Shown here: positions 2,758 to 38,358 of the stretch, in pieces
How the letters are laid out: the number at the start of each line of letters is the position of its first letter
How positions within the stretch are numbered: position 1 is the stretch's first letter
Assembly (NCBI GenBank): GCA_034190085.1
Contig: JAXHTS010000052.1
Coordinates: 1-64,000 of the forward strand
Source of the DNA: Spirochaetota bacterium
GTDB taxonomy: Bacteria; Spirochaetota; UBA4802; JAFGDQ01
Direction: 5' to 3'
Length of the DNA: 64,000 nt
Notes under the pieces: generated by a model
Database searches by the model: none
Seen by the model: the letters and a program-made list of their open reading frames with translations, nothing else
What the model was told of the DNA's origin: nothing
Made by a program: the position numbers and the translations under genes

Positions 2758-3654
2758 ATGAATCCTAAAAAAGTAAGCAAACTATTCGATAATAAACCTT
2801 CACGAATATCAATTTTATCTCCATCTGATACAGATTCAAATCTATACCGACAAATGCAATGGGGTGACTACTGGGTAAAATATGAGCTTACTAAAGCTTT
2901 GGGGCAATTAGGATATCTTGTAACAAACGATAAACCAAATATTATTATTCATTTATTCGGATCTCATATGAAATTGCCCAAAAATGCGTTTAAAATTATC
3001 TGGATATATAGTCATCCTGAAAAAGTTGATGATAACCTATTAAAAAGATATGATAAAATATTTTGTTTATCTTCCTCATTTAACAAAAAAATTGAAGAAA
3101 TGGGATTTGAATCCAACATTTTATTTGGAGCTACTGCTAAAAAATGTTTTCATACTCCTGATAATAGTTTTGATTACGATATCTTTTTTGTAGGAAATAA
3201 TAGAATTGATGGGATAAGGCAAATTGTGCAGGATATAGGAAAGACTAAATATAACTTTAAAGTATGGGGAACAAGATGGGAAAATAGAATTAATAGTCAA
3301 TATATTGGTGGACAATATATTGACTATACAAATCTTAATGAGTATTATGCAAAGTCAAAAGTCAGCTTAAACGATCACAGCGATGAAATGAGAAAAGAGG
3401 GTTTTGTTGCTGTACGTATCTTTGATATTTTAGCTAGTGGAGGATTTTGTATTTCTGATCTTAATCATGGTATTGATGAATTATTTAGAGGAACAGTTCC
3501 GCAATATGAATCTCCTACTCATTTGAAAAATTTGATCAATTTCTATATTGAAAATGACAAGGAACGCCAAGAACTTATGCTCCAAGGAAGGGAAATAGCT
3601 TCCAATTACACATGGGATAAAGTTGCAAAATCTCTTATCTCTTCGTTTTTATAA
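2758..3654 (+). CDS. CgeB-like glycosyltransferase (GT-B fold, family 1 type)
   Basis: The 298-residue soluble protein has an N-terminal domain with IIIHLFGSHMKLP and IIWIYSHPEKVDD. Its C-terminal half has GFVAVRIFDILASGGFCISD and closes with NYTWDKVAKSLI. This layout (a GFxxxRxFDilAsGgf block, then an ASNxTW end) is typical of CgeB-like, spore-coat related glycosyltransferases. The gene at 5039 is a relative with the same terminal HTWDKRIEEMI pattern. The sugar donor and acceptor cannot be read from the sequence. Confidence 0.75.
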   Translation: MNPKKVSKLFDNKPSRISILSPSDTDSNLYRQMQWGDYWVKYELTKALGQLGYLVTNDKPNIIIHLFGSHMKLPKNAFKIIWIYSHPEKVDDNLLKRYDKIFCLSSSFNKKIEEMGFESNILFGATAKKCFHTPDNSFDYDIFFVGNNRIDGIRQIVQDIGKTKYNFKVWGTRWENRINSQYIGGQYIDYTNLNEYYAKSKVSLNDHSDEMRKEGFVAVRIFDILASGGFCISDLNHGIDELFRGTVPQYESPTHLKNLINFYIENDKERQELMLQGREIASNYTWDKVAKSLISSFL

Positions 3655-3695
3655 ATTTTTAAATTAATAGAATCATTAGTATAGGGAGTGAATAA

Positions 3696-4382
3696 ATGAA
3701 TATAGTATCATTAATTAATCGCATTATAGAAAAAAATAAGAATGGATCGGCTTGGGAGTTATGGCAAAATAAATGGGATGATAATAAAGTCGATAGAATT
3801 TGGGGTGAAAAATTAAGAAATGAAGATTGGGAAAAAGATCCAACCTATAAGCTAATAGCAGAGAAGTGTGTAAAAAACGGAACAAATATTCTTGATATCG
3901 GATCAGGGGGAGGAGTGCAATATAGAGCAATAAAAGAATATGCTGATAGGATATCTTATACTGGTTTAGATATAACTCCAAGGCATATTGAATTTTCACG
4001 AAAAATGTTCCCAGAAGCAAGGTTTGAATTAGGAGATGCTGCAAATTTACCTTTTAATGATAAAGAATTCGATGTATCTATTATTAGACATGTCATTGAA
4101 CATCATCCAAAAGATAAAGCAGAAAAGATTCTTGCCGAATCTTTAAGAGTCAGTAAAAATTGTGTGTTGATTCTATTTTTTATTCCCCCTATTGAAATGC
4201 AAGAGGATATAATTATAAAGAGAAAAAAATCTGGTTTTTTTCTCAATACTTACAACAGAGATTTTATTATTAACACAATAAAAATGAACGTAAAGAACCC
4301 AAAAATCAACCAAGAAATGATTTTTAAAACTGAATCATCACCTGCTCTTTCAGATCAAGAATTATATATTATTAAATTATGA
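3696..4382 (+). CDS. Class I SAM-dependent methyltransferase
   Basis: A 228-residue protein with the Rossmann methyltransferase motif I ILDIGSGGGVQY (about residues 65-76), TGLDITP at the acidic end of strand 2, and FELGDAANLPFNDKEFDVS followed by RHVIEHH. This is the methyltransferase 11 arrangement. AGGGAG lies a good distance before the ATG, one of the few clear ribosome sites in this part of the island. It probably methylates a sugar or a glycan terminus; the substrate is unknown. Confidence 0.8.
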   Translation: MNIVSLINRIIEKNKNGSAWELWQNKWDDNKVDRIWGEKLRNEDWEKDPTYKLIAEKCVKNGTNILDIGSGGGVQYRAIKEYADRISYTGLDITPRHIEFSRKMFPEARFELGDAANLPFNDKEFDVSIIRHVIEHHPKDKAEKILAESLRVSKNCVLILFFIPPIEMQEDIIIKRKKSGFFLNTYNRDFIINTIKMNVKNPKINQEMIFKTESSPALSDQELYIIKL

Positions 4383-4400
4383 ATATGTTAATTTTATTTC

Positions 4401-5039
4401 ATGATAAAATATTTAATGAAATTAATTAAAAAGGCTGCGAAAAGGTTATATCAAGTTCCAATTATTAAACATATTTATATAGCTCTCTTTAACGCTTTTT
4501 CAATAAAAAAAATAAAAAAAATCAATACTTTAAAGTTACACCTTGGTTGTGGATCAGTTAAATTAGATGGATTTATTAATATTGATATTGAAAATTGGGC
4601 TGGAAAATGTGATCTCATTATGGACTGTGTTAAATTAAAAAAGATTAAATCAAAATCTGTCGATTATATCTTTACTCATGCCTTATTGGAACATATACCA
4701 CCATACAAAACTTCTGATACGCTTATAGCATGGAATAGAGTGTTAAAAATAGGTGGAATAATTCTAATAGAAGTACCTGATCTTGAAAGAATATTTGAAG
4801 ATTGGTTAGTTAAAGGGATACTTTCTGAAAAAGAAGCAATAAATAATATTTTTGGAGGAAATAAAAAAGAAAAAGACAAATATTCAGCTCAAGATCATTT
4901 GACTGGATTTACATATACTCGACTGTGCAATTTCTTAAAGGAATGCGGTTTTAACAATTTCAAAAGGATTGAACATGATATATATCACCATATTTTGTGT
5001 ATCCAAGCAATGAAAGTAAAAGATGTAGGCAAGAATTGA
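4401..5039 (+). CDS. SAM-dependent methyltransferase (short COG4627-like type)
   Basis: The 212-residue protein has a basic N-terminal stretch and then LHLGCGSVKLDGFINIDI (about residues 46-63). This form of motif I is seen in the predicted methyltransferases that sit among glycosyltransferases. FTHALLEHIP and WNRVLKIGGIILIEVPD form the later motifs. No Shine-Dalgarno is visible. The stop codon shares its last base with the start of the next gene, so the two are translationally coupled. The substrate is unknown. Confidence 0.75.
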   Translation: MIKYLMKLIKKAAKRLYQVPIIKHIYIALFNAFSIKKIKKINTLKLHLGCGSVKLDGFINIDIENWAGKCDLIMDCVKLKKIKSKSVDYIFTHALLEHIPPYKTSDTLIAWNRVLKIGGIILIEVPDLERIFEDWLVKGILSEKEAINNIFGGNKKEKDKYSAQDHLTGFTYTRLCNFLKECGFNNFKRIEHDIYHHILCIQAMKVKDVGKN

Positions 5040-6034
5040 TGAATTTTAAAGTGTTGTACGTTGATACGATTTCAGAACCACAAGCGCAAATAAATGTTGA
5101 AGGTATTTCTTCAGCTTATAATAAAATAGTAAAGTTAATAAAATTCGATTATCGTAAGATAGCAAAGTATTTTGGAAAGCAGATAATGAATACATCCCTT
5201 TATATAGTTGCAAAAATAACAAGACCGAATTTAATACATATTGGGAAAGGTGAAACAATACAAGGGGATACTATAAAAATAATAAAAAAAAATTCTAAAT
5301 GCAAAGTAATACATTTTTATGGCGATTTCCGAAATACTCCTCAACCTTACGTTATTGATATTGGCAAATACGCTGATATAACATTATTGTATCATAAAGA
5401 TCAAAGAATAATTAAGCAGCACCACGATTTGGGAGTAAAAAATATCGGTTTCTGGTGGGTTGGATCAGATCCAGATATTTATAGACCGATTCAATTAGAA
5501 AAAAAATACGATGTTGTTTTTTTTGGAAACAATGCCGACTTTTTACCAGGACATGAAGAAAGAAGAAATTTAATTAAGGCAATTGCTGAAAGTGGAATTA
5601 CAATACATATTTTTGGAAACAACTGGGATTTATTTACAGATCACCAAAACATTGTATTGCATAATTTTGTTGTAAGTAAAGAATTTGTCGATACATGTTC
5701 AAAGGCAAAGATTACTTTAGGGTATAATGCAGTAAATGATGTTTATTATTATGCCTCTTGGCGCAGACCTTTTAACTGTATGGCATGTGGTGCGTTTCAT
5801 CTTACAAAATATTTCCCAGGTATAGAAGAGGTCTTTGAAACAAAAAAACATCTTGTTTGGTTTGATACAATCAATGAAGCTGTAGAGTTAATTCATTTTT
5901 ATCTTAATAATTCTGAAGAGAGAGAAAATATTGCACAAAATGGAAGAGAAGAAATAATCAACAATCATACTTGGGATAAACGGATTGAAGAAATGATTAA
6001 TATATATAAATCAATAGGTGGCGAAATAAAATGA
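5039..6034 (+). CDS. CgeB-like glycosyltransferase
   Basis: A protein of 331 residues from the ATG at 5039. The open frame extends 14 codons upstream, but this ATG overlaps the preceding stop by one base (TGATG), the usual coupled arrangement. Features include IHIGKGETIQGDT, FYGDFRNTPQPYV, WVGSDPDIYRPI, VVFFGNNADFLPG and a C-terminal AGC-containing block YASWRRPFNCMACGAFHL. It closes with NNHTWDKRIEEMI. The arrangement matches the gene at 2758, so the two are probably paralogous transferases adding successive residues. Confidence 0.75.
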   Translation: MNFKVLYVDTISEPQAQINVEGISSAYNKIVKLIKFDYRKIAKYFGKQIMNTSLYIVAKITRPNLIHIGKGETIQGDTIKIIKKNSKCKVIHFYGDFRNTPQPYVIDIGKYADITLLYHKDQRIIKQHHDLGVKNIGFWWVGSDPDIYRPIQLEKKYDVVFFGNNADFLPGHEERRNLIKAIAESGITIHIFGNNWDLFTDHQNIVLHNFVVSKEFVDTCSKAKITLGYNAVNDVYYYASWRRPFNCMACGAFHLTKYFPGIEEVFETKKHLVWFDTINEAVELIHFYLNNSEERENIAQNGREEIINNHTWDKRIEEMINIYKSIGGEIK

Positions 6035-7143
6035 TACAAGTATTTAAACCATATTATAATGAAGAAGAGATAAATGCTGTGAGTGAAGTAATACGATCAG
6101 GATGGGTCGGTCTTGGTCCGAAAACAGCAGAATTTGAAAGAGAATTTGCAAAATACTGTAATGTTAAATATTGTATAGGTCTAAATTCATGCACAGCGGC
6201 TCTTGATATGGCAATGAAGCTTCTTGGTGTTAATCATGGAGATGAAGTTATTGTACCAACAATGACTTTTGTTTCTTCAGCTCATTGTGTTGTTTATAAT
6301 CTTGCAACACCTATTTTTGTAGATATTGATGAAGATACATTAAATATCGATATAGAGGATGTTGCTCGTAAAATTTCACCAAGAACTAAAGCAATTATTC
6401 CTGTACATTATAGTGGTAGACCTGTTGATATTGATAAATTAAAGGAAATAGCAGGTAATATCCCCATAGTTGAGGATTGTGCGCATGCTTCTGGAGCAAA
6501 ATATAAAGGTAAACCAGTTGGAGGATTAGGTGACATCGGATGTTTTAGTTTTCATGCAGTTAAAAATCTGGCAATGGGAGAAGGTGGCGCAATTACCTTA
6601 AATGATGAAAATTTGGCTAATAGAGCCAAGAGAAATAGATGGTTAGGAATCGACAAAGGTACGTGGGATAGGACAAAATTAGATAGAAGTTATTGGTGGG
6701 AATATAGTGTAGATGAGATTGGTCTTAAATCCCATCTCAATGATATTTCTGCAGCAATTGGGTTAGTCCAATTAAAAAAATTAGAAAAAGGGAATAAAAG
6801 AAGAAAAGAAATTATTGATATGTATAGGGAAGGATTGAGGGATTTAGAAGAGATAAAGATGCCCCCAGAAGATAATGAAGTTTTTAATTCATCATGGCAT
6901 CTATGTGAAATTAAAGCTCAAAACCGTAATGAATTAAGTGTTTTCCTTCAAGAAAAAAAGATAAATACAGGTGTGCATTACAAGCCAATTCATTTGTATC
7001 GTTGTTATGGGAATCGAACAAGCTTGCCGAAAGCAGAAAAAATTTTTCAAATGATTATCACCCTACCTTTATATCCTGATTTAACAAATAATGAAGTACA
7101 ATACATTATTGATACAATTAAAAAATTTTATAACAATAAGTAA
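6031..7143 (+). CDS. DegT/DnrJ/EryC1/StrS family sugar aminotransferase
   Basis: The 370-residue PLP enzyme has family motifs GLNSCTAALDMAMKLLGV, DEVIVPTMTFVSSAHCV, PIVEDCAHASGA and FSFHAVKNLAMGEGG. Lys178 (in HAVKN) is the expected internal aldimine lysine, and EDCAH supplies the cofactor-binding Asp. These enzymes aminate keto-sugar nucleotides using glutamate. It overlaps the preceding gene by ATGA. With Gmd-like enzymes in the same island it could be a GDP-perosamine synthase, but substrate choice (GDP- or dTDP-sugar) cannot be decided from sequence alone. The next gene is an N-acetyltransferase. Confidence 0.88.
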   Translation: MIQVFKPYYNEEEINAVSEVIRSGWVGLGPKTAEFEREFAKYCNVKYCIGLNSCTAALDMAMKLLGVNHGDEVIVPTMTFVSSAHCVVYNLATPIFVDIDEDTLNIDIEDVARKISPRTKAIIPVHYSGRPVDIDKLKEIAGNIPIVEDCAHASGAKYKGKPVGGLGDIGCFSFHAVKNLAMGEGGAITLNDENLANRAKRNRWLGIDKGTWDRTKLDRSYWWEYSVDEIGLKSHLNDISAAIGLVQLKKLEKGNKRRKEIIDMYREGLRDLEEIKMPPEDNEVFNSSWHLCEIKAQNRNELSVFLQEKKINTGVHYKPIHLYRCYGNRTSLPKAEKIFQMIITLPLYPDLTNNEVQYIIDTIKKFYNNK

Positions 7144-7145
7144 GT

Positions 7146-7808
7146 ATGAATTCTTTAGAAATAATAAGTAATCTAAAAAATGGTAAGATATTAAATAATA
7201 ATTTTCTAAGAGCATACGACAATGAGAATAATCTTTATTATTTACGTCCTGTCAAGATTGGAATTGATGATGCGAGGAACATGTCGAGATGGCGAAGAGA
7301 TTTTTCTAAATCATTTTTATCATGGATAGAGCCTGACGAAAACGAGGTATTGAATTGGCTTCAATCTTATAAAGATAAGAATAATGATATAATTTTCATT
7401 ATTGAATCTGAACATAATATATCAATAGGACAAATATCAATTTACAATTTAAATCCACTTACAAAACAAGCAGAATTTGGGAGAATTATCCATGATAAAA
7501 ATTGCAAATCAAAAGGTATTATGACATCCGCTTCAAAAACTTTAATAAAATGGGCTTTTGAAAATTTATCCCTAGAAAAGCTATCGTTAGAAGTATTTGT
7601 AGATAATAAATCTGCAATATTGCTCTATAAAAGATTAGGATTTATTATTGATAGCATATCAGTTTATTATAAAACTATCACAATTGATGATGTAGTTACA
7701 TGGAGAAGATTTGATGAAATTACTAAATATCCAAAAAATTCCCAACAAGGTGAATTTCGAGAAGTATATGAGATGAGTATTAATAAACAAATATTTAAAC
7801 AGAATTAA
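7146..7808 (+). CDS. GNAT-family N-acetyltransferase, probably acting on an amino sugar
   Basis: The protein has 220 residues. It has YYLRPVKIGIDDARNMSRWR near the start, IGQISIYNLNP (beta 4 area), the acetyl-CoA region CKSKGIMTSASKTLIKWAF, and VFVDNKSAILLYKRLGF typical of RimJ/PseH-like GNAT proteins. It begins two bases after the DegT aminotransferase stop. Aminotransferase plus GNAT pairs commonly make N-acylated amino sugars. The donor might be acetyl-CoA or another acyl thioester. Confidence 0.75.
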   Translation: MNSLEIISNLKNGKILNNNFLRAYDNENNLYYLRPVKIGIDDARNMSRWRRDFSKSFLSWIEPDENEVLNWLQSYKDKNNDIIFIIESEHNISIGQISIYNLNPLTKQAEFGRIIHDKNCKSKGIMTSASKTLIKWAFENLSLEKLSLEVFVDNKSAILLYKRLGFIIDSISVYYKTITIDDVVTWRRFDEITKYPKNSQQGEFREVYEMSINKQIFKQN

Positions 7809-7819
7809 ATTTATCTTTT

Positions 7820-8986
7820 ATGGGTAGTAAGGCAATTGTACGAATAGCAAGAATCAAAGACAAAGAAGAAATATTTAATTTTATATCAAAAAACTGGAAG
7901 GAACGATCTCCATATCAGATACCTGAGAGATGGGAATGGTTATTTATAAAAAATCCTTTCATAATAAAGAACTATATTAAATTACCTCTTCCAATTTGGA
8001 TTGCAAAAAAGAATAATCAAATTGTTGGGCATACTGCTGCAATGATAGTTCCTTTGAAATTAGGGAAAAAAATTTACACAGCGTCATGGTCTATTAATAC
8101 GCTTGTTTTATCTGAATTTAGAGGTGAATCAATTGGATACAATTTGCAGAAAGCGAATCAGGAATCAGCGCAAATTTTTATGAGCCTTGGAATGAGTAAG
8201 GCAAATCGAAGCATTAAACATAAGCTTGGCGGAATTGATGGTCCACCAGTGTTTAATTATTTCTTGAGACAAAGATGGACAATTGAAAAAATATCTAATG
8301 CTTTATTAAAACGACTTAATATGTTTAACAAATTTGGGGATTTAATTTTTATATACATAAAAAAATTTAAGATTATAATATTATTACATTATATATTGAA
8401 TCTTCCTTTAAAAATTAGGTTGTTATATTATAAAATAAAAAATTATACAGTTTTGAATAAATCTGGAATAAGTATTAGTGAAATTGAGCGTTTTGCCGAT
8501 TTATTAGATAAAGATTTAATAGGATTAATGAAACCATACAAATTTGCTGTTAATAGAACAAGTGAATACTTAAACTGGAAATTCGTTGATCAACCTCATC
8601 TAGAATATCGTATTTTTTTAGCAACAAAAGGTGAAAATGTTTTAGGTTATACAATAATTAGAGTTGGACAAAAACCTCATGAAAATAATAACGGGATAAT
8701 ACTTGAACTAATGGCAGACCTAAAAGATAATAAGACAATGTATTATCTACTCAATCATGTATTGTCAATTTTTACAGATGCAAAAACAGAATCCTCAATC
8801 ATTTCAACCTCTATAAGTGAAATAGAGAAAGTGATTAAACGATTTGGGTATAAAAAAAGAAGTGAGACAATCCCTGTAATATATATATCAGACGATATTG
8901 AAGAAAAAAAATTATTCCAAGATAAAACATCTTGGCTTTTCAGCTATGGAGATCATGATCTAGACCAGTTCCCAAATATAATATAA
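7820..8986 (+). CDS. GNAT-superfamily acyltransferase, large form
   Basis: A 388-residue protein. The first half has a GNAT-like core: IVRIARIKDKEEIFNFI, IWIAKKNNQIVGHTAAMIVP, SWSINTLVLSEFRGESIGY. The second half has another strand-rich block with YLNWKFVDQPHLEYRIFLA and VLGYTIIRVG. This two-part form is seen in GNAT proteins of polysaccharide loci. There is no Shine-Dalgarno before the ATG. The position between a sugar N-acyltransferase and a deacetylase suggests a role in glycan decoration, but the acceptor is unknown. Confidence 0.6.
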   Translation: MGSKAIVRIARIKDKEEIFNFISKNWKERSPYQIPERWEWLFIKNPFIIKNYIKLPLPIWIAKKNNQIVGHTAAMIVPLKLGKKIYTASWSINTLVLSEFRGESIGYNLQKANQESAQIFMSLGMSKANRSIKHKLGGIDGPPVFNYFLRQRWTIEKISNALLKRLNMFNKFGDLIFIYIKKFKIIILLHYILNLPLKIRLLYYKIKNYTVLNKSGISISEIERFADLLDKDLIGLMKPYKFAVNRTSEYLNWKFVDQPHLEYRIFLATKGENVLGYTIIRVGQKPHENNNGIILELMADLKDNKTMYYLLNHVLSIFTDAKTESSIISTSISEIEKVIKRFGYKKRSETIPVIYISDDIEEKKLFQDKTSWLFSYGDHDLDQFPNII

Positions 8987-9778: not shown

Positions 9779-10240
9779 ATGCTAACAGATAGATTTGATA
9801 TGTCATCAGATAAGTTGATATGGTATTCAATTGATGAATTATATGGAAAATCGATTGAACGAGAATTCATAATAACTGAAGAATTGATTGATCACTTTGC
9901 TCATATTTCTGGTGATTTTAGTAGTATACATATTTCAAATAAAGCAGCTAAAGCTAAAGGTTTTAAAGGACGAGTTGCGCATGGAATCTTATTAACGAGT
10001 TTTGTTTCAGCAATAATTGGGATGGACTTGCCTGGTGAAAAAAGTATTTTACAAAGTATTGAAATGAAATATCTCTATCCATGTTATCACAATGACAAGA
10101 TTACAATCAAGTTGGAAATAACCGAAATATTCAAATCTGTCAAAACTGTAATTGCAAAAGTAAACATCTTCAACCAAGAAGGAACTAAAGTTTCGAAGGC
10201 TAAAATTCAAATTGGATTAAAAGAAGATTATAATGGATGA
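9779..10240 (+). CDS. MaoC-like (R)-specific enoyl hydratase/dehydratase, hot-dog fold
   Basis: The 153-residue protein carries the hydratase-2 signature FAHISGDFSSIHISNKAA, in which Asp46 and His51 are the expected catalytic pair, followed by GFKGRVAHGILLTSF. Enzymes of this family add or remove water at the 2,3 position of acyl thioesters on CoA or ACP. The stop overlaps the start of the FkbH-like gene by 8 bases, which ties it to the acyl-carrier module downstream. I infer that it processes an ACP-bound acyl group. Confidence 0.85.
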   Translation: MLTDRFDMSSDKLIWYSIDELYGKSIEREFIITEELIDHFAHISGDFSSIHISNKAAKAKGFKGRVAHGILLTSFVSAIIGMDLPGEKSILQSIEMKYLYPCYHNDKITIKLEITEIFKSVKTVIAKVNIFNQEGTKVSKAKIQIGLKEDYNG

Positions 10241-12173
10241 AAAAATAACTAACGAATTGAAAGAATTTATTACATCTGAAGGGCAAAAAAGATTACTCCT
10301 TTTCCCAAAATTTAAAAAATCATTATCGAAAATGATTTCTTCAAATCAATCAGATGTTGCATTCAACGTTTTGAAATCAGCTTTATCTATAGATTATGAC
10401 TACTCTACTTTTAAATCCTATTATAATTTAGTAAATAAAGTACGAACATATAATCTGAATAAAAATATAAATAAGACAAAAATAGCAATATTAGGTAGTT
10501 ATACGACCAATCAGTTAACATGGTTTATTGATCTATTTTTATTCTGTTCAGACATTGATGTAGAAATTTATGAGTCAGAATATAGCGTAATAAATCAGGA
10601 AATTTATTCAAAAGATTCGAATTTATATCGCTTTAAACCTCAAATTGTCATTCTAATATGTGGACACAAGGATATCAAATTATTTCCAAAATTTGGACTA
10701 AGCGAAAATGATGTAAAAGAAATTGTTGATCAGGAAATCAATCGTTGGATGAATTTATGGAATACATTACACACGAATATTAACTGTCAAATAATACAAA
10801 ATAATTTTGATATTCCTCCATGGAATGTTATGGGCAACATTGAACACAGAGTTCCATATTCACAAGGAATGTATTTTACATATTTGAATCAATCTTTATC
10901 TAAAAAAGCTCCAGCTTATGTCAATATTCATGATATTGACATGCTCTCTTCAATGCATGGGAAATTAGAATGGTGTGATCAAAGATTTTATTACGATTCT
11001 AAACTCCCTTGCACACCAGAATTACTTCCATCATATGCCAACAGTATCGCATCGATAATAGTTGCATTACTTGGCAAAAGTAAAAAATGTTTGGTTTTAG
11101 ATTTAGACAATACTATATGGGGAGGTGTTATTGGTGACGATGGATTAGGTGGTATTTCTCTTGGTCAAGGAAATCCAACAGGTGAAGCATTTCTAAATTT
11201 TCAGCAATATATAAAAAATCTAAAGGATCGAGGTATTATTCTAGCAGTTTGTTCTAAGAATGATGAAAAAAATGCTAAAGAACCATTTTTAAGACATCCT
11301 GATATGATTTTAAAATTAGACGACATCACTTGTTTTTTAGCAAACTGGAATAATAAAGTAGCAAATATACAGAAAATAGCACAAGAGATTAATATTGGCA
11401 CTGACTCAATAGTATTTGTTGATGATAATCCACACGAGAGAGGAATTGTACGATATTATCTCCCTGAAGTTGCTGTGCCTGAAATGCCAGAGGACCCAGC
11501 ATTTTACATACAGAAAATTGACAGCTATCGTTATTTTGAGACAACTTCCTTCACTAATGAAGATCTAATACGAGCAGAGTTATACTCGTCAGATATTAAA
11601 AGAAAGAAATTGCAAAATAAGATAGTAAATATTGATGATTATCTTCAGTCACTGAATATGAAAGCAATAGTAGAACCAATTAATCCAGAAAACATCAACA
11701 GGTCTGTTCAACTAATTAATAAGACAAATCAATTCAACCTCACAACAAAACGTTATACAAAAATTAATATTGAAGAAATAATAAATAATTCTTCCTGGAA
11801 AACCTTTACAGTACGACTTATTGACAATTTCGGTGATAATGGCTTAATTTCAATTATACTATCTGAAATTAAAAATGAAACTTTGATAATTGATACTTGG
11901 CTTATGAGTTGTCGGGTTTTAAACCGTGGAGTTGAACAATTTCTTATGAATTATATCTGTAATTTATCACGAAATAATAATATTTCGATTATTGAAGGTA
12001 AGTATATACCGACTGCAAAGAATAAAATGGTTGAAAAATTATACTTCCATTTAGGATTTGAACAAATAAATGATTTAAATGACGGTACTACATACTGGTC
12101 ATTAAAAACAAATTCAATTAATATTAATAATTTAAAATATTTCATTATGGAGGGAAAAAAGAGAGATGTCTGA
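10233..12173 (+). CDS. FkbH-like HAD-IIIC protein (glyceryl- or acyl-ACP forming)
   Basis: A 646-residue protein. The N-terminal third resembles the SGNH-like part seen in long FkbH proteins (AILGSYTTNQLTWFIDLFLF). The HAD motif LVLDLDNTIWGGVIGDDG puts the two catalytic Asp at 290 and 292. AVCSKNDEKNAKEPF and IVFVDDNPHERGIVRYYLPE supply the later HAD motifs. The C-terminal part (about 480-640) is GNAT-like. Characterised FkbH-type enzymes take 1,3-bisphosphoglycerate and load a glyceryl group on an ACP. Here the ACP gene follows with an 8-base overlap, which strongly supports that role; the exact acyl group is inferred. Confidence 0.85.
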   Translation: MDEKITNELKEFITSEGQKRLLLFPKFKKSLSKMISSNQSDVAFNVLKSALSIDYDYSTFKSYYNLVNKVRTYNLNKNINKTKIAILGSYTTNQLTWFIDLFLFCSDIDVEIYESEYSVINQEIYSKDSNLYRFKPQIVILICGHKDIKLFPKFGLSENDVKEIVDQEINRWMNLWNTLHTNINCQIIQNNFDIPPWNVMGNIEHRVPYSQGMYFTYLNQSLSKKAPAYVNIHDIDMLSSMHGKLEWCDQRFYYDSKLPCTPELLPSYANSIASIIVALLGKSKKCLVLDLDNTIWGGVIGDDGLGGISLGQGNPTGEAFLNFQQYIKNLKDRGIILAVCSKNDEKNAKEPFLRHPDMILKLDDITCFLANWNNKVANIQKIAQEINIGTDSIVFVDDNPHERGIVRYYLPEVAVPEMPEDPAFYIQKIDSYRYFETTSFTNEDLIRAELYSSDIKRKKLQNKIVNIDDYLQSLNMKAIVEPINPENINRSVQLINKTNQFNLTTKRYTKINIEEIINNSSWKTFTVRLIDNFGDNGLISIILSEIKNETLIIDTWLMSCRVLNRGVEQFLMNYICNLSRNNNISIIEGKYIPTAKNKMVEKLYFHLGFEQINDLNDGTTYWSLKTNSININNLKYFIMEGKKRDV

Positions 12174-12414
12174 TGTTAAAAATCAATTACAACAAATATT
12201 CCGTGATATTTTTGAAGATGATAGTATAATAATTTTTGATGAGATGACAGGTGATGATATTGAAGAATGGGATTCCCTTGAACATATTAATCTTATTATT
12301 GCTGTTGAGAAAAACTTTAATATTCAATTTGCCACATCTGAAATTTCCAGATTAAAAGATGCAGACCAAAATGTTGGAAAATTTATTAAACTTATTGAAC
12401 AAAAAATTTGTTAA
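12166..12414 (+). CDS. Acyl carrier protein
   Basis: This is an 82-residue acidic protein. The phosphopantetheine attachment serine is Ser37 in EEWDSLEHINLI, followed by VEKNFNIQFATSEI, the usual helix II-III region. GGAGG about 10 bases before the ATG is a clear ribosome site inside the end of the FkbH-like gene. It is the likely carrier for the FkbH product and the donor to the MBOAT protein, the position DltC holds in dlt operons. Confidence 0.9.
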   Translation: MSDVKNQLQQIFRDIFEDDSIIIFDEMTGDDIEEWDSLEHINLIIAVEKNFNIQFATSEISRLKDADQNVGKFIKLIEQKIC

Positions 12415-12431
12415 TGGTTTAACTAAATCAA

Positions 12432-13664
12432 ATGAATATTGCTTCCATTCCCTTTCTGATTTTCATAAGTTTATCAGTTATCCTGTTTTTATTAGGAAAC
12501 AATCTTGTATATCGTCAATTACTTTTAAGTTTTATTAATTTAATTTTTCTTATTACTTATATACAAAATATTAATACTTGTATTGTTTTTTTTGTTTTTA
12601 TTTTATCAAGTTATTTAATCTTAAAACTTATTAAAAAATACTCATTACAAAATTATATATTCATTTTTGTATCCATTATCGTTGTATTTTTCCTCTTTAT
12701 AAAAAAATATGATTTTCTAAAACTGATCATCCCTACAAACTTACTAGATCATAAAATTGAGTTGATTGGCATATCCTATATGATGTTTAAATTAATACAT
12801 ATGATTATTGACTTATATCAAAATCAATTATCCAATATCAAATTACTTTACTATGCAAACTACCAGTTAGGTTTTTTTTCTTTGTTAGCAGGACCAATTC
12901 AACGTTATAATGATTTTTATAATTATTTTAATGAAATTGATAAAACCTCATTCACTAAAAATGAAATCTTATCTTCATGGAATAGGGTACTTACTGGAAT
13001 GTTTAAAATGGGATTATTATCAATTTTAGCACTCAAACTTTATCAAAGGGAAGCTATTGGAGTAATAAGTAATGTTTCAAGTATCAAAGTAATTGTACAC
13101 TTTATGATATATTTTTATAGTTATCCAATTTATGTTTATTTAAACTTTTCAGGTTATTGTGATATCGTTATTGGTTGCGCTCAACTTATTGGTCTTAAAT
13201 TACCAGAAAATTTTAATAGTCCTTTTATAGCTCGCAATATGGTTGAATTTTGGAACAGATGGCATATTACTCTTTCAATCTGGATTAGGGACTATATCTT
13301 TATGAATTCTTACAAATGGATCGCTCAAAAATGGAATAGACATGCGAAGAATGCTGGATATATACTTATATTTATAACATTTTTTATTGCTGGTGTTTGG
13401 CATGGTTCAACCTGGAATTTTATTATTTTTGGATTAATTCATGGTTTTGGTGTTGCAGTAACACGTATTTATGGGGATATTTTAAAATCATTGCTTGGTC
13501 GTTCAGGATTGAAGAATTACTATAAGAATTCTGCAATTAGGTTGATTGCTATATTTATCACTTTTAATTATGTTTGTTTTAGTTTTATTTTTTTTCATGT
13601 TGATTTAAATCGAACTTTAAAAATTGTTAATACTTTTTTTATATCCATAATTTCATTTATATAA
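12432..13664 (+). CDS. MBOAT-family membrane acyltransferase (DltB/AlgI-like)
   Basis: A 410-residue polytopic membrane protein. The MBOAT landmarks are YFSFLLAGP-type LGFFSLLAGPIQRYNDF, VYLNFSGYCDIVIG, FWNRWHITLSIWIRDYIF and AGVWHGSTWNFIIFG followed by LIHGFG. His324 (in WHG) and His337 (in LIHG) are the two conserved histidines, the second being the usual catalytic one. It is somewhat shorter than typical AlgI/DltB proteins because the C-terminal helices are fewer. MBOAT partners of this kind pass an acyl group from a cytoplasmic ACP to an extracytoplasmic acceptor. Confidence 0.88.
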   Translation: MNIASIPFLIFISLSVILFLLGNNLVYRQLLLSFINLIFLITYIQNINTCIVFFVFILSSYLILKLIKKYSLQNYIFIFVSIIVVFFLFIKKYDFLKLIIPTNLLDHKIELIGISYMMFKLIHMIIDLYQNQLSNIKLLYYANYQLGFFSLLAGPIQRYNDFYNYFNEIDKTSFTKNEILSSWNRVLTGMFKMGLLSILALKLYQREAIGVISNVSSIKVIVHFMIYFYSYPIYVYLNFSGYCDIVIGCAQLIGLKLPENFNSPFIARNMVEFWNRWHITLSIWIRDYIFMNSYKWIAQKWNRHAKNAGYILIFITFFIAGVWHGSTWNFIIFGLIHGFGVAVTRIYGDILKSLLGRSGLKNYYKNSAIRLIAIFITFNYVCFSFIFFHVDLNRTLKIVNTFFISIISFI

Positions 13665-13678
13665 TCAATTAATAATAA

Positions 13679-13837
13679 ATGATGAAACAATTTATAAAAT
13701 TTAACAACAGAATAAAACCAAATGATACATATTTTATGGTTTATATCATTTTTAAAGCTATCATTATTTTAATTATTCTTTCTGTATTGTGGGCATTGGA
13801 AAATAAAGATTCTGTTGTTCTATATATGGATTTCTAA
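13679..13837 (+). CDS. DltX-like 52-residue membrane microprotein, MBOAT partner
   Basis: This small gene reads ATGATGAAACAA through to TAA at 13835-13837, with the stop overlapping the next ATG by one base. The protein has a basic amphipathic N-terminus (residues 1-17), one membrane helix (about 20-40) and a short tail ending VVLYMDF, with Tyr49 four residues from the end. DltX of Gram-positive D-alanylation is the same size and lies next to the MBOAT protein. It ends in a similar aromatic tail whose Tyr accepts the acyl group. The position between MBOAT and DltD-like genes makes coding very likely. The acyl-acceptor role is inferred from the motif and context. Confidence 0.75.
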   Translation: MMKQFIKFNNRIKPNDTYFMVYIIFKAIIILIILSVLWALENKDSVVLYMDF

Positions 13838-14859
13838 TGAAGTCAAGTAATCAGAATAATGATAATAATGATAATAATAAATGGATAATAATATCTCCAT
13901 CAATGTATATTTTAATTATTTCATTGTTTATAATGATATTACTTTACTCAATATCAATATTTTTTTCAAAAGATATGAACCAATTTCTTAAGTTATACCG
14001 AGTTCCTACATTTGAGGAGTCACTAATCTATTATCAAATGAGTTATGTTCACAACTCAAATGAGTATAATGATGTGATTTTTCTAGGAGAAAGTGCATGT
14101 CTTTCTGGAATAATAACAAGACAATTTGAAAAAAAAACAAACTTAAAAGCCTACAACTTAGGTACATTAGGATGGCTCGGTCCTGATGGATATATTGATA
14201 TACTGAAATCTTACATTGAAAATCATCATGAACCAAAAATTATTGTATTTGCAGTTTTCCCACCTTTATTGGCAGATGAAAAGTCAAAAAATCCTGAAAT
14301 AAAAAAAAGATTTATAAGATCGTTTGGTGGTGATATTAAAACAAGTATGCTTAATTCTTCTATACCTCCTCAGTATTTGGTTCGCGAGGGTATAAGAACT
14401 ATTTTTGGTAAAATTCAAGGGGGAGCTGATTATTATTTCAATGTAAATCGATATCATAGACCTAGTCATTTTGATATGTCGAGATCTATTTTAGAGCAAA
14501 GGGGTTTTCAGGAAGATATTCGTCGAAAAACAATCAAACCAATTGAAAAAAAAGCATTTATAGTCTCAAAAAAATACAAAAAAAACATATTCGATATGGC
14601 TCTTTTAGCAAGAAAAAAAAATGTTATTCTAATGATTCGTCTAATGCCAATTCCCTTTCAGGAAAATTATATCGATGCAACGCCTTTAATTCAATACTTG
14701 AAAGTTATTGAAAAAGAATTTTCGAATGTTATTATTGATAAACCAATAATACTTCATTATAATACAAAACTCTACGCTAAAATCACACACCTCAATATAT
14801 ATGGTGCTAGAAAATTTACAAATTATTTATCAAAAAGGATATCAAAAATAATAAAATGA
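13837..14859 (+). CDS. DltD/AlgJ-like SGNH-type membrane-anchored protein
   Basis: This 340-residue protein has an Asn/Asp-rich N-terminus (NNDNNDNN), one membrane helix (about residues 25-45) and an extracytoplasmic domain. VIFLGESACLSGI supplies the SGNH nucleophile candidate Ser86. AYNLGTLGWLGPDGY resembles block II, and KITHLNIYGARKF supplies His318 as the block V candidate. The Asp three residues before that His in canonical SGNH enzymes is not visible here (it is Lys), so the catalytic triad is uncertain. In dlt operons DltD makes the final transfer to the polymer; the same order here suggests the same role. Confidence 0.7.
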   Translation: MKSSNQNNDNNDNNKWIIISPSMYILIISLFIMILLYSISIFFSKDMNQFLKLYRVPTFEESLIYYQMSYVHNSNEYNDVIFLGESACLSGIITRQFEKKTNLKAYNLGTLGWLGPDGYIDILKSYIENHHEPKIIVFAVFPPLLADEKSKNPEIKKRFIRSFGGDIKTSMLNSSIPPQYLVREGIRTIFGKIQGGADYYFNVNRYHRPSHFDMSRSILEQRGFQEDIRRKTIKPIEKKAFIVSKKYKKNIFDMALLARKKNVILMIRLMPIPFQENYIDATPLIQYLKVIEKEFSNVIIDKPIILHYNTKLYAKITHLNIYGARKFTNYLSKRISKIIK

Positions 14860-15608
14860 CAAAATCATACAATTTTGATACTTGTTTAATCACTGGAGGT
14901 TCACGAGGAATTGGTGCTGCAATAGCCTTAAAGTTATATAGTAAAGTTAAAACTATATATTTAAATTATCATAAAAACCGAAATCAAGCGAATCTAATCT
15001 GCAATCTTATTCATGAATCAGGGGGAAGAGCAATCCCCATCAAAGCAGATGTGTCAGATATTCTTGCTGTGAACAAAATAATAGAAAAAATACAAATAGA
15101 AAATAGTAAACTTGATATTTTGATTCATAATGCTTCACTTCCAATTATTCCACAAAAAACTTTGAAATTAGATTGGGAAGAAGACATTTTACCTCAAATA
15201 GAAGTTGCATGTTTAGGTTTTCTTAATTGTATAAAATCAGCAAATCATTTGTTTGTCGAAGGTAGTAAAATAATTGTTATTTTAACAGATGCTTTATTTC
15301 ATACACCACCTGTGCAAATGGGTGCATATTTAACAGCAAAAGGCGCATTATGGGGATTAGTCAGATCCGTTGCAAAAGAATTTCAAAGCAAAAAAATTTC
15401 AGTTAATGTAGTTTCACCAGGTATGACAAAAACTGAATTACTAACTAATTATAATGAGAGGTCATTGGAAATTATTGCTAATGATTTACCTTTAGGTAGA
15501 CTTGCAAAACCTGAAGAAATTGCATCTGCAATAGAAATAATAATTGGACAATCAGGAGATTATATGCATGGAGCTAATATTGTGTTAAATGGTGGTGTGT
15601 ATTTTTAG
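14856..15608 (+). CDS. Short-chain dehydrogenase/reductase, FabG-like
   Basis: The 250-residue protein has the nucleotide-binding TGGSRGIGAAIALKL, the HNAS motif and the catalytic YLTAK (Tyr158, Lys162). The serine normally 13 residues before the Tyr is Asp145, with Thr144 beside it (ILTDALFHTPP), so the standard Ser-Tyr-Lys triad is altered. C-terminal motifs VNVVSPGMTKTELL and GANIVLNGG are normal. It overlaps the DltD-like gene by 4 bases. It may act on an ACP-bound 3-oxo or 3-hydroxyacyl group, or on a sugar. Confidence 0.82.
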   Translation: MTKSYNFDTCLITGGSRGIGAAIALKLYSKVKTIYLNYHKNRNQANLICNLIHESGGRAIPIKADVSDILAVNKIIEKIQIENSKLDILIHNASLPIIPQKTLKLDWEEDILPQIEVACLGFLNCIKSANHLFVEGSKIIVILTDALFHTPPVQMGAYLTAKGALWGLVRSVAKEFQSKKISVNVVSPGMTKTELLTNYNERSLEIIANDLPLGRLAKPEEIASAIEIIIGQSGDYMHGANIVLNGGVYF

Positions 15609-23319: not shown

Positions 23320-24157
23320 AAGGCTTCCTGAAAAAGTCAAAAGTACTGAATATTTGAGAGTTTTCGTGGCATAATGCTTGCTTAATATGCAAGGAAAATG
23401 TAAGAATAAGCGTATAATCCTTGCACATGGAGTAAAAGTTGTACCGAAAGAAATCATTGGAACAACTCGAATTCGAAGACTTTTATCTTCCCTTTGGAGG
23501 TAAGCTCAGAAGTGACAAAAGGTGGGTAATGCTTACAAAGCTGATTCCATGAGAAGAGATAGAAAAGTTATATTCAGATAGATTTTCAAAACAGATGGGA
23601 GCGCCAGCCAAACCATTAAGGATGGCACTCGGATCATTGATAATAAAAGAGCGTTGTGGATTTACAGATGAGGAGATAGTAAATCAGATACAAGAGAATC
23701 CATATTTACAATATTTCATTGATATAGATCATATTGAACAATACAAAGAACGTTACGGTTGTTATCCTGAAGCAATACAGGTAGATAATATATATCGGAC
23801 GAGGCATAACATAGCATTTTGCAAAGAACATGGAATACGGATTTCAGGACCAACTCTTGGTCGTTCCCCCAAAACAGTTAAGCCGACTGAAGGTCTAAAA
23901 GAGGAAAAACAAGATTTAAGAGAACGAATAGCTATTGAAGGCAAAATTGAAGAAGGCAAGAGACATTATGGATTGTCCAGAAAAATGGCAAAGATTCCTA
24001 AAACAAATGAAGCAGTTATAGGAATTATCATCCTGATGATGAATCTTGAAAGGAAGCTAAGGCTTCTTTTTACTCAAATTCTATTGAGACAATTTAAACT
24101 TTATAAATGGTTAAGGTTAGCCGTATAAGTCAATTTTCGACTTTTCCAGGAAACCTT
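23320..24157 (+). mobile_element. IS5-like element with terminal inverted repeats and internally deleted transposase
   Basis: The left end AAGGCTTCCTGAAAAAGTC (from 23320) and the complement of the right end, AAGGTTTCCTGGAAAAGTC, are imperfect inverted repeats. ATT flanks both sides and may be a 3-base target duplication. Inside, the frame reads QLEFEDFYLPFGGKL, WVMLTKLIP then a TGA (at 23550) where relatives have Trp, then MGAPAKPLRMALGSLIIKER and NPYLQYFI. It then jumps directly to the C-terminal block YPEAIQVDNIYRTRH. The catalytic middle is missing, so the copy is non-autonomous. Another right end of this element is at 1-125. Confidence 0.8.
23595..24128 (+). pseudogene. Transposase remnant of the IS5-like element (N- and C-terminal parts only)
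   Basis: The open frame of 177 codons joins the DUF772-type N-terminal block (GAPAKPLRMALGSLIIKER, FTDEEIVNQIQENPYLQYF) to the C-terminal block (DNIYRTRHNIAFCKEHGIR, EGKIEEGKRHYGLSRKMAK, MMNLERKLRLLFTQILLRQ). In intact relatives some 150-250 residues with the first catalytic aspartates lie between them. The joint is at about residue 46, after NPYLQYFI. The real N-terminus lies before an upstream in-frame TGA. Not functional. Confidence 0.75.
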
Positions 24158-29073: not shown

Positions 29074-30489
29074 TTAGATTTTGAAAATATTTAATCCCAT
29101 ACTAGCTTTATTTACTAGCTCTTTAAATGATGATACCTCTTTCAAACGTTTGATTATATAAGTTGGTCGCAAATAAAATGACTGGTATGCTTTTTTTAGT
29201 AGTCCAATCAATTCTTCTCTACTTAAAATTTCATCCCAAATCTTTGGATTAAAATTTTTATTTGGATTTCTCGCAAAATCTCTCCAATAATCATTTGCAT
29301 AAATTCCATTTTCTAATCCAAGTTCATATAGAGCTGTACCTGGATATGGAGTAGTTATAGAAAAATGAGCATAATCTGGATTTAATTTTCTTGCTAATTT
29401 AATAGTAATTAATATATCTTTTTTAGTTTCTGTAGGAGAACCAATCATAAAATATCCTAAAGTTTGAATGCCATGCTTCCTTGTTAACCTAAATGCTTCG
29501 TTTGCCATTTCTACTGTAATACCCTTACGAAGAATATTTATAATATGTTGCGTTCCTGCCTCAACTCCATAATGAATTCTTTTACAGCCAGCATTTTTTA
29601 AATTCTTTAATATCTCAGCATCGACTGTGTTTACTCTCGTTCTAATATCCCATGAGATAAATAATTTTCTCTTTATTATTTCAGAACAGATATCCAAAAC
29701 ACGCTGACGATCCACACCAAAAGTGTCATCATAAATAAATATCTCCTGAATGCCCATATTTTGGCACTCTTCCATTTCATCTACTACATTTTGAGCTGAG
29801 CGAGGTCTGAAATATTTTCCCATGTGAGGACGATCACAAAACAGACATTTGTATGGACATCCACGACTTGTGAACATAGTTGTAACAGGAAATTTTTTTG
29901 CCATGCTTGATTTATACTGTTTGTATGGTGTCAAATGACGAGCTGGCATTGGAAGAGCATCAAGATTAACATTTAATTCTCTGTAACCTGTATTTATAAC
30001 ATTATTGTTGGTATCTTTAAAAACAATTCCTTTAATTTGAGACATTTTTTCTGAACTAGCAATATTATCTAATAATTCTCTCAATATTTCTTCACCCTCT
30101 CCTAAAACTAAATAATCAACACCCTTAAGATTGATAGTCTCCTCAGGATAAAGATGTACGTGTGGTCCGCCTAAAATGACTTTAATATTTTCATCAATTG
30201 ATTTTACTTGATGCACTACATCAAGCACATCAAGCAAAGTAAATGTCATTGTTGTAATGCCAACTGCATCAGGCTGTTCATGAATAAGTCTATCGCGAAG
30301 ATCAGTAAAATCTAATTTTTCAATTTGGCAATCTATGATTTTAACTTCATGCTCAGAGTTATTTTGCAAATATGCTGCAAGATACATAAGACCTAAAGGA
30401 GGCATTGGATCTTCTTCTTTTAATAGAATTTCAGGCAAGCTTGGGTCAATAACATTTGATATAGGTGGATTGATTAGTATAATTTTCAT
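29074..30489 (-). CDS. B12-binding radical SAM protein
   Basis: The 471-residue protein has an N-terminal cobalamin-binding fold (about residues 1-140: LMYLAAYLQNN, ADAVGITTMTFTLLDV-like segment, KVILGGPHVHLYPEE). The radical SAM cluster motif is TSRGCPYKCLFCDRPHMG (three Cys of CxxxCxxC), followed by EIFIYDDTFGVDRQRVLDIC and HYGVEAGTQHIINILRKG. These enzymes catalyse methylations or rearrangements at unactivated carbon. As last gene of the minus-strand operon after a sugar amidotransferase, it may modify a sugar or lipid carrier. The substrate is unknown. Confidence 0.88.
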   Translation of the reverse strand: MKIILINPPISNVIDPSLPEILLKEEDPMPPLGLMYLAAYLQNNSEHEVKIIDCQIEKLDFTDLRDRLIHEQPDAVGITTMTFTLLDVLDVVHQVKSIDENIKVILGGPHVHLYPEETINLKGVDYLVLGEGEEILRELLDNIASSEKMSQIKGIVFKDTNNNVINTGYRELNVNLDALPMPARHLTPYKQYKSSMAKKFPVTTMFTSRGCPYKCLFCDRPHMGKYFRPRSAQNVVDEMEECQNMGIQEIFIYDDTFGVDRQRVLDICSEIIKRKLFISWDIRTRVNTVDAEILKNLKNAGCKRIHYGVEAGTQHIINILRKGITVEMANEAFRLTRKHGIQTLGYFMIGSPTETKKDILITIKLARKLNPDYAHFSITTPYPGTALYELGLENGIYANDYWRDFARNPNKNFNPKIWDEILSREELIGLLKKAYQSFYLRPTYIIKRLKEVSSFKELVNKASMGLNIFKI

Positions 30490-30496
30490 TTTATAT

Positions 30497-32521
30497 TCAG
30501 TAGATAGATGGTATCGAATTTATTATTTTTATTGTTTCATCAAAATCAATGCCAATTGTATCACAATACCATTGAATTGAATCAAATCTAGGTCTATTAT
30601 CTAATCGAGTAAGGCTTAATGCTTCTTCTCTTGAAATAAGGTTTTCTCTTATTTGATTACTGCGAAAGGTGTCATTTTCAGAAAAACCTGCAATTGTATA
30701 ATATATATAATTGTAAAATGATGCTGTTCCATCTCCTATTCTCCAAGTACTTTTTGTGTCAGTTGCAATCTCCCAATCAAATTCACTGATCAATTTTGTA
30801 TTTATTTCAGTCTCATCCCATTTAACATATTGAAATAAATATAGATAATTATGAGGTATTACATAGTATGAAAAATAACCAGAGATAGTATCAAGAATTG
30901 AACTATTTATGTATGATTTATTTTTTAAGAATTGTTTTCCATAATAGGTGGCTAACTTAAACTTATCCCCTACTCCTAAAAAATATGGAGGTTTATCAGA
31001 ACGATTGTGTTTAACATTACAAAAACCATGTTTAAAATGGGTTCTTTCCAAGATATTTTCACACATTAATATCAGATTAACATCTATTTTTTTCATTAAC
31101 TGATTGGCATAATAAAAGTACTGCTTATCACCTGCCATAAACAATGGAACAGTACCTAAATCTGGCTTTTGTAACCATGCTAAAACATTTTTTCTAATAT
31201 TTTCTCTTTTTTTCTTTATATCTGCTGAAATTATTATATGTTCAACACCTAAATTTCCACACATTCTTGCCTGGTTTCTTCGTCCTAGATCAGTGATCAT
31301 ACCCCAATCATAGGAATAAGCAACTGGATTCATTCCTAGAATTTCTTTTATGTAATATAATCCATAACTGGAATCTCTCCCACCGCTTAGTGCAACTAGA
31401 CAATCAGGTTTCTCATTATTTTTTTTGTATTTTGAAACAAGTTCTTTCAGAGCATTCTCACCCTTAAGTTCAATCCTATTATAACTTGTGCAATAATTAC
31501 AAATGCCTTGGTCATTAAACTTTATCAATGGCATTGATTCAGGTAAAATGCATCTTGAGCAACGTTTTAATGAATCAATAACGGATTCTTTTTGATGGAA
31601 TTGGTCCAGATATGATGATATGAAGTTATTCCGTTTCGTTGTTTTCTTTTTTGTCTGCAAAGATTTAGTGTTATTAAAATGCGAAAGGTCAACAATTTTA
31701 GAAGTAGATTTATTAGAATAATTTCTATCTACAAGACATTTATTCTCATTAAATGAGAATGTATTAGTTACCAAACTGCTAATATTAATTATACATCCAT
31801 GATTCGGTTTAATTTGTGATATTTCATTAAAATGGAATATATTCTTTAAAAATTTTTTTATTATATTTTTTATTATAAATATTTCAGAAGCAAAAACACA
31901 AATACTTTTATTTTTACTAAAAGATATATATAAAGAACCAGTATTTGTAGCAAGTAACAAATTATTGGAATTGTTAAATAGAATAGAAATTGATGCTGAA
32001 CCATTAATTAAACTGAATGTTTTCTTTATTGATTCTTCTAATGATTTTGTTTCTTTTAAAAATTTACTTATTAAACTCACAATAACTTCTGTATCTATAT
32101 CGTAATGCTTTTCTATATTCGAATTATTTTCCCAGAGTTCATCATCGTTAACAATAATTCCATTATGTACACCTACCATTCCATCTTTAATAATTGGTTG
32201 ATTATTAATATTTAACTCCATAGAGCCATTAGTTACTAATCGAGTATGTCCAATTATTGCTATTGGATGGACATTATTCAATGACTCATTTTCTTTATTA
32301 ATATTATAAAATAACTCTTGATATTCCTTTTTTTTTATTAACTGTGAAGCAGGAATAGGTTGTTTAAAAACTTGTATCGAGTTATTAGAGGATATAGCAA
32401 TACCTGCTGCTTCTTTTCCACGTGATTCAGATAATCTAAATAAATTATTAACTATAGGTTGAATTTTCGATTGAGGAAATTCTGATTTTCCAGTTCTTAT
32501 TAATCCAAATATCCCACACAT
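30497..32521 (-). CDS. Glutamine amidotransferase (class II) fused to N-acetyl-sugar amidotransferase (WbpG/PseA-like)
   Basis: A 674-residue two-domain protein. The N-terminal MCGIFGLIRTGKSE (Cys2 nucleophile after Met removal), IGHTRLVTNG and GMVGVHNGIIVNDDEL form a GlmS/PurF-type glutaminase (about 1-270). After a linker come CSRCILPESMPLIKFNDQG and CNYC (zinc-like Cys pairs). The ATP PP-loop is LVALSGGRDSSYGLYYIKEI, followed by YDWGMITDLGRRNQARMCG, the WbpG/PseA family core. Classical WbpG works with separate WbpH/HisH-like glutaminases of another class. Fusion to a class II glutaminase is unusual. It probably makes acetamidino or amide sugars. Confidence 0.85.
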   Translation of the reverse strand: MCGIFGLIRTGKSEFPQSKIQPIVNNLFRLSESRGKEAAGIAISSNNSIQVFKQPIPASQLIKKKEYQELFYNINKENESLNNVHPIAIIGHTRLVTNGSMELNINNQPIIKDGMVGVHNGIIVNDDELWENNSNIEKHYDIDTEVIVSLISKFLKETKSLEESIKKTFSLINGSASISILFNNSNNLLLATNTGSLYISFSKNKSICVFASEIFIIKNIIKKFLKNIFHFNEISQIKPNHGCIINISSLVTNTFSFNENKCLVDRNYSNKSTSKIVDLSHFNNTKSLQTKKKTTKRNNFISSYLDQFHQKESVIDSLKRCSRCILPESMPLIKFNDQGICNYCTSYNRIELKGENALKELVSKYKKNNEKPDCLVALSGGRDSSYGLYYIKEILGMNPVAYSYDWGMITDLGRRNQARMCGNLGVEHIIISADIKKKRENIRKNVLAWLQKPDLGTVPLFMAGDKQYFYYANQLMKKIDVNLILMCENILERTHFKHGFCNVKHNRSDKPPYFLGVGDKFKLATYYGKQFLKNKSYINSSILDTISGYFSYYVIPHNYLYLFQYVKWDETEINTKLISEFDWEIATDTKSTWRIGDGTASFYNYIYYTIAGFSENDTFRSNQIRENLISREEALSLTRLDNRPRFDSIQWYCDTIGIDFDETIKIINSIPSIY

Positions 32522-38292: not shown

Positions 38293-38358
38293 AACAATTC
38301 TCGATTCTTATTAATTAAAATGACCATCACCAAGAAATAAAAATAAAATATTAAGATA

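Follow-up and report, generated by a model that had tools for sequence, protein, structure and literature searches.

In DltX and in PatA, the acyl group has been shown to ride on the tyrosine of a terminal motif, and the same 2025 mechanism paper describes the MBOAT/SGNH pathways outside the Dlt system as operating without a carrier protein and without a DltX-like microprotein (PMC12148441). FkbH proteins load a glyceryl group from 1,3-bisphosphoglycerate onto an acyl carrier protein (ACP) (PMC7489565; PMC8949500). The operon considered here combines these elements. It is located at positions 9,779 to 15,608 of a 64,000-nucleotide stretch (the window) of contig JAXHTS010000052.1 from the Spirochaetota bacterium assembly GCA_034190085.1, and it encodes a MaoC protein, an FkbH protein, an ACP, an MBOAT, a microprotein, an SGNH protein and a short-chain dehydrogenase/reductase (SDR). 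With a probability of roughly 0.6, these genes encode an MBOAT/SGNH system that is fed by a carrier protein and acylates an extracytoplasmic glycan. The operon represents a split-shuttle form of an FkbH-fed MBOAT/SGNH family for which no description was found in the literature searched. Among open-licence papers, searches for FkbH together with MBOAT yielded only work on cyanobacterial peptides, and no paper combining FkbH, ACP and O-antigen was found.

The operon and its predicted acyl relay

All seven open reading frames (ORFs) are intact on the plus strand at the coordinates given by a preliminary description of the locus (Table 1). In order from MaoC to SDR, the computed intergenic gaps are -8, -8, +17, +14, -1 and -4 bases, in agreement with that description, which had the members overlapping or fewer than 20 bases apart.

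Table 1. Features of the acylation operon, with positions in the window
Feature	Position	Strand	Evidence and key residues
MaoC-type (R)-3-hydroxyacyl thioester dehydratase/hydratase	9779..10240	+	PF01575; Asp46 and His51
FkbH-type HAD/GNAT-like glyceryl-ACP synthase	10233..12173	+	TIGR01686, PF21211, PDB 3slr; DLDNT, residues 290-294
Dedicated acyl carrier protein	12166..12414	+	NCBIfam DltC/ACP matches; Ser37 in WDSL, codon 12274-12276
DltB-type MBOAT acyltransferase without C-terminal shuttle motif	12432..13664	+	TIGR04091, PDB DltB 6bug, alignment, tree; His278 (FWNRWH), His324 (WHG)
DltX-like single-helix microprotein, 52 amino acids	13679..13837	+	Translation, comparison with Latilactobacillus and Niallia DltX
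C-terminal acyl-shuttle motif VLYMDF (consensus FxYxxF)	13817..13834	+	Predicted acceptor Tyr49 at 13823-13825
DltD/PatB-like SGNH acyltransferase, N-terminal transmembrane helix	13837..14859	+	Alignment, MBOAT-adjacent homologues, AlphaFold/Foldseek; Ser86 14092-14094, His318 14788-14790
SDR oxidoreductase, FabG-like	14856..15608	+	PF13561; alignment with FkbH-linked SDRs

The MBOAT matches the DltB model TIGR04091 over nearly its full length (1.2e-62, 212 bits), below the equivalog cut-off of 375 bits, and also matches the solved DltB structure 6bug (1.7e-36). Alignment with DltB proteins places both conserved histidines in the window protein, which stops where DltB stops. The fused C-terminal F/Y-x-Y-x-x-F motif found in all 27 of the AlgI/PatA-type MBOATs compared is missing from it, and in the tree it falls outside these 27 proteins, on the DltB side. 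With its catalytic histidines, its SGNH partner and a tyrosine shuttle motif supplied by the microprotein, it has the features of an MBOAT-SGNH pair in the wide sense. When this MBOAT was used as query, the genome contig collection yielded a single distant AlgI-type locus and viral contigs yielded no match.

The microprotein consists of a basic N-terminus and one hydrophobic helix, and it carries VLYMDF at its exact C-terminus, where the DltX proteins of Latilactobacillus and Niallia end in FIYNEF and YIYNDF. It has the features of a DltX-like microprotein with a C-terminal FxYxxF motif, though the first position is Val. Such a terminal motif occurs in 7 of 2980 ORFs of 40-70 amino acids in the window and the loci collected: four are copies of the window microprotein, one is a DltX, one is an MBOAT end and one is an unrelated ORF, giving a background rate of about 1 in 3000 unrelated ORFs of this size. 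No Pfam or NCBIfam family is matched by the microprotein. An AlgI-type MBOAT split by a frameshift was considered and ruled out, because the microprotein frame is closed upstream by many stops and has its own start.

The SGNH protein likewise matches no Pfam or NCBIfam family, and its homologues in spirochaete genomes mostly directly adjoin MBOAT genes. Ser86 (in GxS) and His318 are invariant across the alignment. A Foldseek search with its AlphaFold model, which is of moderate quality (pLDDT 63.5), matches TesA, DltD (6pfx) and PatB with probabilities of up to 1.0, no E-value being below 0.001 (4e-3 for DltD). No homologue was found in the plasmid collection.

At the loading end of the relay, the FkbH protein scores well above the curated TIGR01686 cut-off (2.4e-88; 296 bits versus 147) and matches the FkbH_N domain PF21211 (1.2e-18) and PDB 3slr (1.3e-78). 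Its DLDNT motif is conserved throughout its kin. A domain above the cut-off and an ACP gene that overlaps by 8 bases mark it as a candidate glyceryl-ACP synthase. The best NCBIfam match of the ACP is DltC (1.4e-4), and among 72,556 plasmids the ACP is matched by three ACPs only, each of which adjoins FkbH. No DltA above the TIGR01734 cut-off is present among 29 A-domain-like hits in the whole genome, which is 96% complete. Of 393 genomes in the phylum, 11 contain FkbH, and the nearer relatives searched all lack it, which suggests that the window gene was gained horizontally. In viral contigs, eight FkbH loci were found, none with a recognised MBOAT. Patents on gellan reportedly name a glyceryl transferase gene fkbH.

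The preliminary description had read the order of ACP, MBOAT, microprotein and SGNH as the Dlt architecture, in which FkbH stands in for the D-alanine ligase. Family matches, motifs and the DltX-type terminus agree with this, and the last, which that description did not mention, strengthens the relay it proposed. The scheme offered here is predicted in every catalytic step, acyl group and acceptor, alongside the observed gene content, family identities, motifs and recurrence. FkbH would take the glyceryl group from 1,3-bisphosphoglycerate, remove the phosphate and load the dedicated ACP. The DltB-type MBOAT would then move the acyl group from the ACP to Tyr49 of the microprotein, and Ser86 in the SGNH protein would receive it from there. 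Finally, the SGNH protein would esterify a hydroxyl group on a sugar of the glycan, lipid-linked or at the surface, that the surrounding glycosyltransferase cluster makes. Taken together, these loading and transfer steps are considered likely.

FkbH-ACP-MBOAT loci in other genomes

Eleven other loci with FkbH-ACP-MBOAT neighbourhoods were found. They belong to Alphaproteobacteria (L049, Rhodobacteraceae SC52; L050, S. meliloti pSymB; L136, Tistrella pTM1), Verrucomicrobiota (L095, L098, L100, L102, L103) and other members of the window's phylum (L122, L123, L125). In L125, FkbH adjoins the MBOAT and no intervening ACP is seen. A separate SGNH-like gene, in some cases recognised by motif only, follows the MBOAT in L049, L098, L100, L102, L123, L125, L050 and L136, and stands one gene away from it in L103. 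No SGNH was recognised in L095, and the L122 contig ends inside the MBOAT. In L123, FkbH, ACP, MaoC, SDR, MBOAT and SGNH form a single run, and genome G293 likewise has these six together. FkbH and MBOAT cluster far above chance, with five of ten loci adjacent (P 8e-9 to 3e-6, a rough estimate that allows a 3-Mb genome 3 to 10 MBOATs). This recurrence rules out the window system as a chance orphan.

Wherever the C-terminus of an FkbH-linked MBOAT was readable, the shuttle motif is fused to the MBOAT, which accounts for the absence of the microprotein from these loci. The FkbH-linked MBOATs are scattered over several places of the AlgI tree, and on that account FkbH has probably joined MBOATs more than once. 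Among 393 spirochaete genomes, a split-type MBOAT is found in the window only; none was found in 289 Verrucomicrobiota genomes, in a search that had no positive control. These results divide two earlier statements. The remark that no described system with this exact set was known gives way in that FkbH, ACP, MBOAT and SGNH recur in three phyla, and holds for the split MBOAT and microprotein, which were found only in the window. The proposal was also to fall if the microprotein and SGNH protein never accompanied FkbH and MBOAT elsewhere; the SGNH protein does accompany them and the microprotein does not.

Related gene clusters were seen in the same searches. On pSymB (L112/L050; at about 631 kb in S. 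meliloti strain 1021), MBOAT, SGNH-like protein, ACP and FkbH form a single run, as read in L050. FkbH is found on some 40 Sinorhizobium plasmids with a VOC protein nearby, and a close copy lies on an IMG/VR contig (L057). L095 holds two very similar MBOATs (3592-5037 and 10184-11644) on either side of one FkbH-ACP-MaoC-SDR module. A second type of FkbH cluster in Verrucomicrobiota (L096, L097, L099, L101) has a long FkbH (733-748 amino acids), a hexapeptide acyltransferase and either one ACP or two, joined in two cases by a VOC protein and an SDR, and is without MBOAT. On Metabacillus plasmid pB218 (L133, 1760-6088), an ACP, an AMP-binding ligase, an MBOAT ending in FIYGGF and an SGNH-like protein make up a further non-Dlt MBOAT system fed by a carrier.

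The acyl group, the acceptor and competing explanations

The MaoC protein matches PF01575 (4.2e-16), and its Asp46 and His51 are invariant in eight FkbH-linked MaoC domains. The SDR is FabG-like (PF13561, 3.9e-37) and, in alignment with FkbH-linked SDRs, keeps Tyr158 and Lys162. Both accompany FkbH and ACP in L122, L123, L124 and L048, and MaoC alone does so in L098; in L047 and L106 the two are fused in one protein, which suggests that they work in sequence. The recurrence with FkbH and the fusions lend support to the earlier proposal that these two enzymes modify the acyl group. In a sequence proposed on chemical grounds, MaoC would strip the 3-hydroxyl from glyceryl-ACP to give the enol of pyruvyl-ACP, which the SDR would reduce to lactyl-ACP; without their action, glyceryl itself would be the group moved. 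By this chemical reasoning, lactyl is tentatively proposed as the final acyl group and is held to be more probable than the glyceryl group of the preliminary description. The complete chain, in which FkbH, MaoC and SDR furnish lactyl-ACP to the DltB-type MBOAT and free DltX-like microprotein for transfer to a spirochaete surface glycan, is put forward more tentatively still.

Several observations weigh against this interpretation of the operon. In the window SDR, Asp takes the place of the catalytic Ser found in its FkbH-linked kin. Both MaoC and SDR are absent from many FkbH-MBOAT loci, and they are therefore dispensable for transfer. Position 1 of the shuttle motif is Val instead of Phe. The split MBOAT and microprotein were found in no other genome, and the microprotein is assigned from its motif, topology and position. 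In the tree, the long branch of the window MBOAT meets the long DltB branch, which makes its position unsure. The SGNH protein has Lys at -3 from His318, where most of its kin have Asp or Glu.

The first two of these points bear on the strongest alternative, in which the glyceryl group is moved without modification and MaoC and SDR serve another step of the glycan cluster. The loci without MaoC and SDR (L049, L050, L100, L102, L103, L125) and the lost SDR serine are in its favour. So are the glycerate esters known from the bacterial polysaccharide gellan (PMC9104527), which also count towards the preferred acylation system. The intact catalytic residues of MaoC, and the recurrence of MaoC and SDR beside FkbH and ACP in several lineages, fused in two loci, speak against it, and unchanged transfer is considered less likely than not.

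The genes around the operon bear on a second alternative. They form a glycan cluster with a flippase, glycosyltransferases, an aminotransferase, GNATs, a WecA-like initiator, GDP-fucose genes and an O-antigen-ligase-like protein. The aminotransferase (6031-7143) and two GNAT-like acyltransferases (7146-7808 and 7820-8986) sit 2-3 kb upstream of the operon, and one of the latter could use the FkbH-ACP product to N-acylate an amino sugar in the cytoplasm, the MBOAT and SGNH protein being an independent O-acetylation system. In the Flavobacterium O-antigen, a dedicated ACP is predicted to feed a cytoplasmic acyltransferase (PMC6519341), and L047 and L124 contain the FkbH module without MBOAT. However, the genes for FkbH, ACP, MBOAT, microprotein and SGNH protein adjoin one another in the operon, three phyla show their adjacency again, and a DltB-type MBOAT such as this one takes its acyl group from a carrier protein, so that cytoplasmic N-acylation appears unlikely.

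Still less probable is a decaying, partly inactive operon in which the substitutions at the SDR serine and the SGNH acidic position mark a loss of function, despite a transposase gene nearby (23595-24128): the seven overlapping reading frames are intact, the catalytic residues of MaoC, FkbH, ACP, MBOAT and shuttle are retained, and the acid at -3 is also missing from other FkbH-linked SGNH proteins, namely those of L123 and L098. A divergent D-alanylation system with its ligase elsewhere in the genome is very improbable, for although the MBOAT, carrier, microprotein and SGNH protein each have a Dlt counterpart, no A-domain-like hit reaches the DltA cut-off, FkbH stands in that place and the MBOAT lies far under the DltB equivalog cut-off.

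For the carrier-fed acylation system preferred here, the acceptor would be a glycan of the surrounding cluster. FlaA is present in the genome of the window organism and in none of 14 control genomes, which points to a spirochaete. LptD was not found in that genome with the PF04453 profile, and for this reason LPS (lipopolysaccharide) O-antigen is no more than a possible acceptor.

Other features of the window and genome were recorded. The transposase gene lies within the glycan cluster, consistent with a mosaic origin. A GDP-fucose synthase gene stands between two GDP-mannose dehydratase-like genes (37117-40484). On the minus strand, opposite to the glycan genes, a B12-binding radical SAM protein adjoins a glutamine-amidotransferase-domain protein (29074-32521). 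Contig C63 of the same genome (G000) carries an NRPS-like (nonribosomal peptide synthetase-like) open frame of 7163 amino acids (30613-53623).

Comparison with described systems

Judged from its sequence, the operon would work in the manner of Dlt, although from another acyl donor, but is not a Dlt member, because no DltA passes its cut-off and the MBOAT misses the DltB equivalog score. The gene content of the window locus and its relatives contradicts the statement in PMC12148441 that pathways outside Dlt have no carrier protein, and the window operon would also contradict the statement that they have no such microprotein. If the proposed lactyl-transfer system is correct, no split shuttle of the DltX type would have been seen before except in D-alanylation, and the system would form a branch of a larger family of FkbH-fed MBOATs. 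A glycolytic intermediate is then predicted to feed glycan acylation through FkbH, a family familiar from polyketides and peptides. The relative on pSymB of S. meliloti 1021 makes the idea directly testable there, and the operon and its relatives lend themselves to comparing fused shuttles with split ones.

The teichoic acid D-alanylation system DltABCDX shares with the operon a carrier protein, a DltB-type MBOAT, a single-helix microprotein with a C-terminal tyrosine motif and a putative SGNH transferase. The window operon differs in having FkbH for DltA, in the addition of MaoC and SDR, in the predicted transfer of a hydroxy acid, and in its host, a diderm spirochaete without a teichoic acid context. 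PatA/PatB and the AlgI-type MBOAT-SGNH systems have in common with it an MBOAT and an SGNH protein with FxYxxF shuttle chemistry, whereas PatA uses acetyl-CoA and a fused shuttle, and the window operon has a predicted ACP donor and a shuttle that is a separate protein. The FkbH glyceryl-ACP units of tetronate and methoxymalonyl biosynthesis (for example Mad7/Mad8 and Mad14/Mad12) likewise pair FkbH with a standalone ACP, but they feed polyketide assembly, while the neighbours of the window FkbH are an MBOAT, a microprotein and an SGNH protein in a glycan cluster. The other FkbH-ACP-MBOAT loci (Rhodobacteraceae SC52, S. meliloti pSymB, Tistrella pTM1, Verrucomicrobiota and other spirochaetes) share FkbH, ACP, MBOAT and usually SGNH with the operon, with MaoC and SDR also in common in G193 and G293. 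They differ in that the motif is fused to the MBOAT C-terminus and no microprotein is seen, the MBOAT end of G193 lying beyond the available sequence.

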